This document shows positions 8,378-22,438 of a stretch of DNA of 64,000 nt, one piece after another. The stretch lies in the NCBI GenBank assembly GCA_017306865.1, contig JAFKHH010000022.1, positions 62,001 through 126,000 of the forward strand, in the 5' to 3' direction. The notes beneath the pieces are model-generated. The model was not told the origin of the DNA. It saw only the letters and a list, made by a program, of their open reading frames with translations, and searched no databases. The first letter of the stretch is position 1. Each line of letters starts with the position of its first letter. The position numbers and the translations under genes were made by a program. The DNA comes from Filimonas sp. (GTDB lineage Bacteria; Bacteroidota; Bacteroidia; Chitinophagales; Chitinophagaceae).

Positions 8378-9712
<1,335 letters not shown>

Positions 9713-9748
9713 TCAGTAATTGAAAAATGAAAGTCGATAAGTAAGATT

Positions 9749-9902
9749 GGAGATACCCGCGCAGGGTATGTAGAGTATATATTATGCCTTGCGGCAACAT
9801 GCACAACAACACGCCAACATGATAATGTTGTTTGTAGAAATTGCTATGTTGTTTTGTTTTTGCATTGATTTGAATACTCTACAAAAATAGAGGGGTATCT
9901 CC
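9749..9902 (-). ncRNA. Candidate structured leader RNA upstream of metY (possible switch or small inverted-repeat element)
   Basis: On the minus strand the element starts GGAGATACCC (9902-9893) and ends GGGTATCTCC (9758-9749), giving a perfect 10-bp closing stem. Inside it a second stem TAGAGTAT/ATACTCTA (9881-9874 with 9778-9771) is also perfect. The interior holds TGCC-GCAA-GGCA, a hairpin with a GNRA loop, and CAACAT-TATC-ATGTTG. The 3' strand of the closing stem can instead pair locally, ATACCC with GGGTAT, which would exclude the long stem. It covers most of the gap between the first operon gene and metY. Its terminal inverted repeats also allow a MITE-like origin. I do not recognise it as a known RNA family. 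Confidence 0.5.
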
Positions 9903-9933
9903 GATATTTCCAATTTTTCTTTCCTGAATTTTT

Positions 9934-11124
9934 TTAGACGGTTGCTAATTTTTTATAACTAACGCTTGTTTTTGCCTCTTCCTGTAGCGTTGCAAATGCT
10001 TGCTCCAGGTCACTGATCAGGTCTTCAACTTCTTCTAAACCAACAGATAGCCGGATCAAACTATCTGCCACGCCGCTCGCCCTGCGCTTGTTTTCTGGGA
10101 TCGATTTATGCGTCATTGCAGCCGGATGGCACAGCAAACTTTTAACACCTCCAAGGCTCTCCGCCAGCTTAAAGTATTTTGTACGCGTTACAAACTGTGT
10201 TGCAGCCACTGCCGTATCTGTTTTTAAAGTGAAGGAAACAACACCGCCAAATGCTTTGCTTTGCTTCGCAGCAATATCGTGGTTATGGTGTGTTGTTAAA
10301 CCCGGGTAATAAACCTGGTCTACCAATGGGTGTGACTGTAAATACTTCGCCACTTCCAGTGCATTCGCGCTATGCTGCTTTACACGCAAGTGCAATGTTT
10401 CTATACCACGTATTACCAGCCAGCTATCGAATGGGGAAAGGATAGCGCCGCTTGCGTTTTGAATAAATTTTATTTTATCGCCAAGCTCTTTCTCTCTTGC
10501 AACTACAAGCCCTGCGATCAGGTCGCTGTGGCCGCCGAGATATTTAGTGGCAGAATGAACTACAATATCAGCTCCCAGCGTAAGAGGTTGTTGTAAGGCT
10601 GGTGAAGCAAAAGTATTATCCACGCAAAGTAAACATCGGTGTGCTTTTGCAATTGCTGCAATAGCTGCGATGTCAGAGATCTTCAGCGTAGGGTTGGTCG
10701 GCGTTTCCAGCCAGATCAGTTTTGTTTTTTCAGAGATGGCTTCAAACACATTTTCTGCTTTTGTTGTATCAACATATTTAACTGTGATACCAAATTTTTC
10801 ATAGATGTGTGTGAACAAACGGAAAGCACCGCCATAGATATCATCTACAGCAATAATTTCATCACCCGCCTGTAATAGTTTTAATACTGCATCTATAGCA
10901 GCCAGGCCGCTGCCAAATGCCACACCTACCTCGCCTTTCTCCAAAGTGGCGATAATGCTTTCCAGTGTAGCGCGTGTTGGGTTGCCGGAGCGTGCGTAAT
11001 CATAACCCTTGTTTACGCCAGGTGCTTCCTGTACAAAAGTAGAAGTCTGGTAGATTGGTACTGCGATAGAACCTGTTTGCTCATCCACAGGTATGCTGTG
11101 GATCAATTGAGTTGCGTTGCTCAT
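9934..11124 (-). CDS. Cystathionine gamma-synthase / trans-sulfuration PLP enzyme
   Basis: A 396-residue member of the Cys/Met metabolism PLP family and first gene of the SAM-riboswitch operon. PLP lysine K194 sits in VVHSATKYLGGHSDL. YDYARSGNPTR (41-51) is the tyrosine/arginine clamp, and GSGLAAIDAVL and ETPTNPTLKI are canonical. The motif SGNPTR and the overall length fit cystathionine gamma-synthase or gamma-lyase; operon context (metY, metX, SAM control) favours a biosynthetic role. The start is the ATG at 11124 (MSNATQLIHS). The frame is open 57 codons further, but that extension is encoded by intergenic repeats and part of the riboswitch leader. Substrate preference among MetB, MetC-like and sulfhydrylase activities cannot be settled by eye. 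Confidence 0.88.
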   Translation of the reverse strand: MSNATQLIHSIPVDEQTGSIAVPIYQTSTFVQEAPGVNKGYDYARSGNPTRATLESIIATLEKGEVGVAFGSGLAAIDAVLKLLQAGDEIIAVDDIYGGAFRLFTHIYEKFGITVKYVDTTKAENVFEAISEKTKLIWLETPTNPTLKISDIAAIAAIAKAHRCLLCVDNTFASPALQQPLTLGADIVVHSATKYLGGHSDLIAGLVVAREKELGDKIKFIQNASGAILSPFDSWLVIRGIETLHLRVKQHSANALEVAKYLQSHPLVDQVYYPGLTTHHNHDIAAKQSKAFGGVVSFTLKTDTAVAATQFVTRTKYFKLAESLGGVKSLLCHPAAMTHKSIPENKRRASGVADSLIRLSVGLEEVEDLISDLEQAFATLQEEAKTSVSYKKLATV

Positions 11125-11244: not shown

Positions 11245-11325
11245 TGAAAATTGAATGTTGTTTGTTGAGCATTGAACATTATGGCAAACGCTCAATGTTC
11301 AATTTTCAGTGATCAATGTTCAAGT
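11245..11325. repeat. AATGTTCAA-family inverted repeat
   Basis: TGAAAATTGAATG pairs with the later CAATGTTCAATTTTCA, and TTGAGC with GCTCAA. Related tracts (CAACGCTCAATATTCAATG, ATCAATGTTCAAATT) occupy the cysH-cysD gap near 12670-12718. It separates the riboswitch terminator from the first operon gene. Confidence 0.6.
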
Positions 11326-11414: not shown

Positions 11415-11531
11415 GACTTATCTCTCCACATCCTGTTACAGATTGTGGTTGGAGTTGGCACCTTTCACGCTTGTGACGTGTGGTTGCCAAGGCTTCATCG
11501 GGCCATATCCCTCTGCCTTTCTTGATAAGTA
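11415..11531 (-). ncRNA. SAM-I (S-box) riboswitch controlling the methionine operon
   Basis: Read on the minus strand, the region shows the S-box core in order: P1 strand ACTTATC, AAGAAAGGCAGAGGGATATG, GGCCCGATGAAGCC, TTGGCAACC, a variable P3 hairpin (ACACGTCACAAGCGTG), AAGGTGCCAACTCC, a P4 region, and the closing P1 strand GATAAGT. These match the conserved SAM-I nucleotides (GAGGGA, GCCCGATGAAGCC, GGCAACC, GGTGC-AA-TCC), with minor drift. SAM binding would stabilise P1 and free the downstream terminator, shutting off the cystathionine synthase, metY, metX and homoserine dehydrogenase genes. The promoter sits immediately upstream. Confidence 0.95.
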
Positions 11532-11791: not shown

Positions 11792-11933
11792 GTCTACCTA
11801 CTTAGTAGGGTTTAAAGTAAAAACGAGTAGTTGATGGTACGAATGATTATAAATATGTGTTGTTGTCCTTGCTGTAAATAGTACAGCAAATTCTCCTGTC
11901 CTTTCTCTTTTCACCATCAACAATTTTTCAAAA

Positions 11934-12659
11934 ATGTCAGTAACAACACAGATTTCCAACATAACAGCAGAGGTAGAAGCAATCGTAGCTCAATCAAATG
12001 GTATTGCTGACACGATCAAAAATTTAGCGGAAGCTTTTCCTGGTGAAATTGTTTTCTCAACCAGTTTTAGCTGGGAAGACCAGGCCATCAGTCATTTCAT
12101 CTTCAGTCAAAATTTACCGGTTGACGTATTTACATTAGATACGGGCCGTTTATTTCCTGAAACATATTCTACCTGGAGCAGTACGCTGAGCAGGTACAAC
12201 CAGCGCATCACCGCGTACTACCCGGATGCACAATTGCTGCAGGAATTTATTGCAGAAAAAGGGCCCAACAGTTTTTACGAATCAGTAGATAATAGAAAGC
12301 AATGCTGTTTTATACGTAAAGTAGAGCCATTGCAACGTGCATTGAACGGTAAAAAGGTGTGGATCACAGGTATCCGCGCGGCACACTCGCCTAACAGAAA
12401 CGATATGACGCAGGTGGAATGGGACGGCTCAAATAACCTGGCAAAATATCATCCGTTACTGAACTGGACAACAGAGGAGTTAACTGGTTTTATACGTCAA
12501 AATAATGTACCTTATAACCCTTTACAGGATAAAGGTTTTGTAAGTATAGGATGTGCGCCATGTACAAGAGCCATTAAGCCGGGCGAAGATTTTCGCGCAG
12601 GCAGATGGTGGTGGGAAGATGCAGATAAAAAAGAGTGCGGGTTGCATGTACATAAATAA
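11934..12659 (+). CDS. cysH: Assimilatory adenylylsulfate (APS) reductase, CysH family with [4Fe-4S] motif
   Basis: A 241-residue PAPS/APS reductase that reduces activated sulfate to sulfite with thioredoxin. The N-terminal FSTSFSWEDQAISHF is the PP-loop-like nucleotide site. Cysteine pairs C124-C125 (KQCCFIRKVEPL) and C207-x2-C210 (GCAPCTR) are the [4Fe-4S] ligands that mark APS-preferring enzymes. The catalytic C-terminal cysteine is C235 in KECGLH. ITGIRAAHSP and SIGCAPCTRAI are classic. No APS kinase (cysC) is present in this operon, consistent with APS being reduced directly. First gene of the operon, 143 nt after its promoter and candidate operator. Confidence 0.95.
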   Translation: MSVTTQISNITAEVEAIVAQSNGIADTIKNLAEAFPGEIVFSTSFSWEDQAISHFIFSQNLPVDVFTLDTGRLFPETYSTWSSTLSRYNQRITAYYPDAQLLQEFIAEKGPNSFYESVDNRKQCCFIRKVEPLQRALNGKKVWITGIRAAHSPNRNDMTQVEWDGSNNLAKYHPLLNWTTEELTGFIRQNNVPYNPLQDKGFVSIGCAPCTRAIKPGEDFRAGRWWWEDADKKECGLHVHK

Positions 12660-22301: not shown

Positions 22302-22322
22302 AGTCTACAAAAATTATAGACT
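22302..22322. promoter_or_regulatory. Palindromic operator candidate upstream of the TonB receptor
   Basis: AGTCTA-CAAAAATTA-TAGACT: a perfect 6-bp inverted repeat with a 9-bp AT-rich centre, matching the palindrome over the cysH promoter in 11 consecutive bases (AGTCTACAAAA). Suggests common sulfur control. Confidence 0.55.
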
Positions 22323-22438
22323 TATATTTTTTAAACATAGCAATGAAAAAAGCAACCAAACCTAACATCGCTTCAAATGAATCAACATTCTTAGTTGATC
22401 ATTTTCAAATTTTCAAATTCCCAAATTTTCAAATTGTC

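Follow-up and report, generated by a model that had tools for sequence, protein, structure and literature searches.

In actinobacteria, candidate leader peptides with runs of cysteine residues have been described for cys operons, and that study reports no conserved terminator hairpin for them (PMC1262725). Polycysteine uORFs of mycobacteria appear in the title of a later paper as cysteine-responsive attenuators (Canestrari et al. 2020, cited in PMC13236596). As reported, both systems resemble the locus analysed here in having a short uORF with a cysteine run near its stop, located before sulfur or cysteine genes. Our locus differs in belonging to another phylum, in preceding metY and cysH, in having a recurring hairpin that is fused to the cysteine codons, and in often standing behind a SAM-I riboswitch; moreover, the uORF studied here has a predicted 5′ leader, in place of the leaderless start of the mycobacterial uORFs.

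Cysteine codons within a uORF stem are also a property of the uORFC-8-2 motif, found upstream of cysS in Rhodobacterales, whose tandem cysteine codons led to a proposal of ribosome-mediated attenuation (PMC8632094). However, that motif belongs to Alphaproteobacteria and to a tRNA synthetase gene, has only two cysteine codons and a 3′ U run, and differs in its sequence and hairpin. In the same phylum as our locus, leader-peptide attenuation has been suggested upstream of amino-acid operons in Flavobacterium psychrophilum, the relevant section of that paper naming no cysteine case, although its supplementary list may include one (PMC9723704), and a study on B. thetaiotaomicron mentions sORFs in long 5′ UTRs (PMC7366714). 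Among the matches listed by full-text literature searches, which covered few subscription papers, none describes a leader peptide of this cysteine type upstream of metY or cysH for Bacteroidota. On our best reading, the kind of regulation is known and its setting (Bacteroidota, metY and cysH) is new.

Here we analyse a 154-nt element upstream of metY, which we consider, with a probability of roughly 85%, to be a ribosome-mediated, cysteine-sensing leader-peptide attenuator of metY-metX-hom. On the best reading, this attenuator belongs to a sulfur regulon of polycysteine uORFs and forms a second layer of control below a SAM-I riboswitch.

A polycysteine uORF in the metY leader

The window, by which we mean the whole stretch of DNA that was analysed (64,000 nucleotides), contains an operon headed by a SAM-I riboswitch, with the element standing before the second gene (Table 1). 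A preliminary description of this DNA had proposed two stems, a GNRA hairpin and a local alternative pairing, all of which were recovered on the minus strand exactly where it had placed them. It had missed two features, namely a TAnnTTTG box inside the element and a cysteine-rich ORF between the stems. The latter has five clustered cysteine codons ahead of the O-acetylhomoserine sulfhydrylase gene, and its stop codon lies 84 nt from metY.

Both in the window and in one related locus (L080), the hairpin that follows the cysteine codons is read in another frame, giving RKA, with the cysteine run still in frame. The run is thus kept although the hairpin is translated differently, which indicates that the peptide tail and the hairpin are separable. 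Two other loci (L163 and L165) have copies of the hairpin pattern described below before metY, in which the best frame ends in CRKA like that of the window and contains only two cysteines in seven residues. Between the riboswitch and the cystathionine gamma-lyase/synthase family gene, we also observed a 38-bp stretch (11245-11282) with six further matches in the genome, at 85-89% identity.

Table 1. Positions of genes and RNA or DNA features in the window
Feature	Position	Strand	Remarks
154-nt element	9749-9902	-	in front of metY; contains all pairings of the preliminary description
Outer stem GGAGATACCC / GGGTATCTCC	9902-9893 / 9758-9749	-	10 bp
P1 TAGAGTAT / ATACTCTA	9881-9874 / 9778-9771	-	inner stem of the preliminary description
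Hairpin 1, TGCC-GCAA-GGCA	9796-9785	-	begins within last Cys codon
Hairpin 2, ATACCC-TGCGC-GGGTAT	9769-9753	-	without U tract; 3′ arm common with outer stem
Palindrome CTCTA-TTTTTG-TAGAG	9892-9877	-	contains -7-like box; predicted internal promoter
TAnnTTTG box TATTTTTG	9889-9882	-	ends 16 nt before uORF ATG
Polycysteine uORF MQKQNNIAISTNNIIMLACCCACCRKA, then stop	9865-9782	-	between the element's stems
Cys codon run TGT TGT TGT GCA TGT TGC	9811-9794	-	runs into hairpin 1
metY, O-acetylhomoserine sulfhydrylase	8378-9697	-	TIGR01326, E 1.2e-208
metX-like gene	8325-7195	-	after metY
Homoserine dehydrogenase gene (hom)	7202-5928	-	after metX-like gene
Cystathionine gamma-lyase/synthase family gene	9934-11124	-	upstream of element; no equivalog cut-off reached
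SAM-I riboswitch	11531-11415	-	RF00162, 85.5 bits; operon head
Polycysteine uORF MVRMIINMCCCPCCK, then stop	11834-11881	+	52 nt before cysH; inner ATG start also possible
Hairpin TTGCTGTA-AATAG-TACAGCAA	11869-11889	+	5′ arm is last Cys codons; uORF stop in loop
9-bp stem GTTGATGGT / ACCATCAAC	11830-11838 / 11913-11921	+	encloses uORF, ends just before cysH start
cysH	11934-12659	+	head of divergent gene run reaching 22139

Recurrence upstream of metY

We took the best 80 metY relatives from one scan of genome contigs, and counted uORFs with an ATG start, 8-80 codons and at least three cysteines in six residues, located at most 450 nt before metY. This rule was passed by 43 of the 80 loci, compared with a mean of 1.0 (maximum 3) in 20 rounds of shuffling, 9 of 80 on the reverse strand, and 7 of the upstream regions of 199 further long ORFs taken from these loci. 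With at least four cysteines, the corresponding numbers are 34 for metY, 0.1 for the shuffles, 1 for the reverse strand and 2 for other ORFs.

In the remaining 37 loci there is no ATG-initiated uORF under this rule. A SAM-I riboswitch occupies the same stretch in 11 of them and 26 have neither device. Two of these 26, L063 and L074, do contain a polycysteine frame, but one that begins with TTG or GTG. In total, a SAM-I signature was detected by motif within 450 nt before metY in 17 of the 80 loci, and Rfam confirmed a SAM riboswitch in all 17; six of these loci also have a polycysteine uORF. Under these rules, the leader of metY in relatives thus contains either device alone, the two in tandem, or none. 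The SAM-I riboswitch itself (RF00162) is a ligand-binding aptamer and is distinct from the 154-nt element.

For further comparison we curated 44 leaders, from 43 relatives and the window. They include L063 and L074 despite their start codons, and omit L059, L062, L076 and L113, whose cysteine ORFs do not fit in position or hairpin. In the curated leaders, the uORF stop is 69-149 nt before metY (median 95), the uORF has 3-7 cysteines (median 5), and the last cysteine is a median of two residues from the end. Typical uORFs end in CCCICCMP, CICCCCCMP or CCICCLCCMP. Two loci (L115 and L122) have a different cysteine-containing ORF before metY and after a TAnnTTTG box; it fails the three-in-six rule, and might represent a variant form of the leader peptide. 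That of L122, read by eye, is MKPQTSTQKFLACRQRRCCSLS.

The uORF is not confined to one family. In a phylum sample of 198 genomes, 13 of the best 30 metY loci pass the rule (shuffles 0.4, maximum 2) and eight do so with at least four cysteines (shuffles 0.05). Eleven of the 13 lie outside the family of the window, although in three of them (L296, L298 and L300) the uORF is about 320 nt from the gene. At that distance (about 318 nt) these three share a near-identical short ORF, MKLTNQYIAREMMCMCCYMQTLH, which can be linked to metY only tentatively. In another family, L287 and L290 have long uORFs that end in CCCTPCCCCC or CCWCPCCC, lie farther upstream than in Chitinophagaceae, and share the 450 nt before metY with a SAM-I motif.

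A second uORF upstream of cysH

The window contains another polycysteine uORF ahead of a divergent run of genes, cysH-cysD-cysN-cysE-like-cobA-cysJ-like-cysI-cysG N-terminal-like. Among the best 30 cysH loci of the family, a polycysteine uORF lies at most 420 nt before the gene in 19 (window included; 18 of the 29 others), whereas shuffles yield a mean of 0.95 of 30 and a maximum of 3. The phylum sample added 27 cysH loci, five of which pass the uORF rule, some with the uORF far upstream (shuffles 0.5, maximum 3).

The cysH operon would be controlled by a device of this kind that has a sequence of its own, and whose enclosing stem can cover the nucleotides immediately ahead of the start codon of cysH. 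For the leader stretch at 11830-11921, the fold has only a small advantage over shuffles (z -1.6), and a permutation test of the enclosing stem gave p 0.08. In modelling, the arm before cysH was 11% unpaired without a ribosome or with a ribosome on the cysteine run or stop, and 81-86% unpaired with a ribosome at the uORF start. Opening of the stem thus required a ribosome at the start of the uORF, so that the model depends on ribosomes that are queued or initiating. With this proviso, the modelled stem suggests control of cysH initiation.

In the genome of the window, 100 of the 123 CCxCC-like sites were checked, and among these the two uORFs in the window precede sulfur genes; Pfam searches found no further sulfur gene behind short cysteine ORFs at these 100 sites. 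Among the listed sites, short cysteine ORFs at L154, L243 and L249 have an ORF of 131-166 aa lying 56-64 nt behind them, for which Pfam returned a DUF420 protein (L249), a sub-threshold glycosyltransferase (L243) and nothing (L154).

Promoter box and palindromes

The sequence TAnnTTTG is the -7 promoter consensus of Bacteroidota. In 31 of the 44 leaders, such a box lies no more than 60 nt ahead of the ATG of the uORF, while 50 rounds of shuffling gave a mean of 1.7 and a maximum of 5. Because the box of the window is inside the element, the 5′ arm of the outer stem lies upstream of the predicted internal start, and would therefore be present only in RNA that reads through from the operon promoter. 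From the 16 nt between box and ATG, a short leader is expected in the window; in L050, L056, L096, L106 and L107 only 7-8 nt separate the box from the ATG, so that the uORFs there could be leaderless.

The box of the window also overlaps a palindrome. Palindromes of the form YCTAY-N4-8-RTAGR, mostly with a spacer of 7, precede 22 of the 80 metY genes (shuffles 0.7) and 14 of 30 cysH genes (shuffles 0.1), and in the window they occur at 11793-11809 on the plus strand, 9892-9877 on the minus strand and 22304-22320 (for example TCTACTAAATTTGTAGA). One of them precedes a TonB-dependent receptor gene at 22343. These palindromes are likely the operator of a putative shared sulfur repressor, perhaps of the Rrf2/CymR type.

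These frequencies, and the overlap of the palindrome with the -7-like box, could mean that only a promoter with a repressor operator matters and that the uORF rides along. Such a reading would leave the cysteine run and hairpin 1 unexplained, the spacer of the palindrome before metY in the window is shorter than is typical, and repressor and uORF layers can coexist. We therefore regard the operator alone as an unlikely explanation, and continue to favour a cysteine-sensing leader peptide.

Selection on the cysteine codons

We compared codons in 24 close pairs of equal-length uORFs. Over the whole uORF, 152 nonsynonymous and 54 synonymous codon differences indicate no coding constraint. However, codons that specify cysteine in either member of a pair were identical in 113 cases, synonymous in 14 and nonsynonymous in six, whereas all other codons were identical in 303 cases, synonymous in 40 and nonsynonymous in 146. 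The contrast in codon differences between cysteine and other codons has a Fisher p of 2e-5, calculated on pairs that are not independent. The six nonsynonymous losses of cysteine trace to two lineages (L072 and L185), and both cysteine codons are in use (265 TGT, 88 TGC). At the level of sequence, these comparisons show that the cysteine codons are constrained while the N-terminus and the remaining peptide drift.

This selection would also be compatible with a small, cysteine-rich protein that acts in trans, by binding metal or sulfide, with the RNA folds being incidental, and a conserved cysteine cluster with a CCxCCMP-like end is indeed seen in many relatives. However, the peptide shows no conservation outside its cysteines and varies in length from 14 to 47 residues, the tail is in a different frame in the window and L080, and the position of the ORF is fixed relative to metY. 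Constrained cysteine codons in an otherwise drifting peptide fit a cis-acting codon run better than a trans-acting product, and we judge the protein to be slightly less probable even than the operator alone. The codon run of a leader peptide thus remains our preferred reading.

A recurring hairpin at the cysteine codons

In most leaders, TATGCC-loop-GGCATA directly follows the cysteine codons, with a loop that is usually GYAA. The stop codon is inside this hairpin in about 25 of the 44 curated leaders, a count that includes L085, where another hairpin was likely taken, and that rests on a pattern which missed the hairpins in L072, L081 and L096. There are few changes in the pairs, such as TATGTC/GACATA in L094 and GTATGT/ACATAC in L086, and RNAalifold found one of five hairpin pairs changed on both sides. 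The underlying alignment has 40 sequences, without L050, L081, L084, L107 and L121 and with L109 added, and outside of hairpin 1 and the cysteine codons it has almost no conserved positions.

In a blind search that did not refer to metY, we represented the hairpin by a 17-nt pattern, with the reversed pattern as control. The pattern occurs once each in 34 of 294 Chitinophagaceae genomes, and the control in none. Of 30 copies examined, 29 are located 94-138 nt before metY (the exception is L181), 27 have at least three cysteines in seven residues in the best frame, and 18 have a SAM-I signature upstream, by motif only. The pattern did not match the hairpin context of the window itself. It was absent from 395 phylum-wide genomes, of which 13, besides that of the window, belong to the family of the window. 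The exact hairpin pattern is therefore family-bound on these genomes, and the uORF rule extends further. DNA homology searching with 231 bp against 147 family genomes was uninformative alone, with three weak matches (in G007, G103 and G106) that coincide with hairpin-pattern copies preceding metY; the loci of the metY relatives and these numbered genomes may overlap in species, and their counts are not independent.

The preliminary description had suggested a second layer of control below the SAM-I riboswitch. A conserved, metY-linked cis element is indeed present, in which the hairpin recurs, as does, less firmly, the inner stem. It had further considered a separate ligand-binding switch, i.e. 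a riboswitch for SAM, SAH, homocysteine or methionine that alternates between the two folds. Such a switch would be consistent with the folding energy of the 154 nt, which is -48.1 kcal/mol compared with -27.7 +/- 3.6 for 200 dinucleotide shuffles, none of which equalled it (z -5.68). It would also suit the location of 29 of 30 hairpin copies before metY, the alternative pairing open to GGGTAT, and the SAM-I riboswitch that is already in the operon. However, the conserved content consists of the cysteine codons and a hairpin, and the conserved run follows the reading frame. In a search of the whole window, RF00162 at 11415-11531 was the only Rfam family found, with none at gathering threshold in the element, and a permissive Rfam search of 9600-10000 gave three unrelated matches with E values of up to 5, far under the cut-offs. 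Lacking both an Rfam match and a conserved unpaired core, a riboswitch in its own right was rejected, and we rate it as the least credible of the regulatory explanations discussed so far. An in-frame run of cysteine codons with a hairpin, and no unpaired aptamer core, points instead to a leader peptide sensed by the ribosome.

The other proposal of the preliminary description, a MITE or other small mobile repeat suggested by the 10/10 matched ends 154 nt apart, was rejected and is barely conceivable, since the element is single-copy at BLAST sensitivity in its own 6.15-Mb genome (the next-best match has 26 nt, E 0.05). By itself, moreover, a 10-bp outer repeat is unremarkable: the 64 kb contain 32 perfect inverted repeats of 10 bp whose arms are spaced 100-200 nt, and five mononucleotide shuffles give 3-12.

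Long-range stems and read-out at metY

Conservation of the stems in relatives, which the preliminary description had named as a check, holds for the GNRA hairpin and less firmly for the inner stem. P1 joins the beginning of the leader to the sequence that follows hairpin 1. Segment permutation over 51 non-redundant leaders, in which the 5′ and 3′ segments of one leader matched better than segments swapped between leaders, gave for P1 p 0.006, 0.004 and 0.006 with 5′ segments of 24, 20 and 16 nt, and 0.065 with 12 nt; a first test on 44 leaders had been weak (p 0.03). Like all of our permutation tests on stems, these values ignore shared descent. Examples of P1 pairings are GGGTAA/TTACCC, GGAGTA/TACTCC and GTCGGG/TCCGAC, in addition to that of the window. 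Part of the signal in the 5′ arm may stem from the DNA palindrome. The outer stem, with p 0.002 with the window and 0.018 without it, has weak comparative support in these sequences.

We then considered how the leader could act on metY. There is no terminator with a U tract in the leader of the window, and an intrinsic terminator at its end was accordingly rejected; only two of the 44 leaders (L072 and L103) have a U-tract stem better than 95% of shuffles. Hairpin 2 exceeds 95% of shuffles in four of the 44 leaders (median p 0.37). Direct hiding of the metY start was likewise rejected, as its modelled access is constant across ribosome positions (0.49-0.53). Alternative pairings exist in the leader, without a U-tract terminator in the window and without a predicted change in access to the metY start.

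Proposed mechanism and implications

The class of the element is well supported, whereas its read-out at metY is not. In our proposal, RNA that is read through or begun at the internal promoter would be translated into the short peptide, whose cysteine run borders on hairpin 1. If charged tRNA-Cys is in short supply, the ribosome would wait at the cysteine codons; when cysteine is plentiful, it would proceed to the stop beyond hairpin 1, adjoining the 3′ arm of P1. The two ribosome positions would favour different downstream folds, involving P1, hairpin 1, hairpin 2 and the outer stem, and metY expression should then rise when cysteine is short. As the read-out, we would prefer lost elongation, or loss of RNA, downstream of the uORF to direct blocking of the metY start. 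The metY enzyme incorporates sulfide into homocysteine, from which cysteine can in turn be supplied by transsulfuration, and control of metY by cysteine scarcity would fit this role.

More tentatively, and with somewhat less than even odds, these observations could be united in a polycysteine-uORF regulon of Bacteroidota that covers sulfur assimilation through the cysH operon and homocysteine synthesis through metY. In this regulon, the frequent tandem of SAM-I riboswitch and uORF would gate metY by both SAM and charged tRNA-Cys, and the stop codon, which in many leaders lies in a GNRA-type hairpin starting at the last cysteine codon, would be part of an attenuator without a classical terminator.

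If the main reading is true, Bacteroidota have a cysteine-sensing control system, in which a metabolite riboswitch and a sensor of tRNA charging are paired before the same gene. Since metY in relatives is led by either device, both or neither, one could compare the two either as exchangeable devices or as the inputs of a single gate. From this reading one can also name the short ORFs in which stalling of ribosomes should depend on cysteine.
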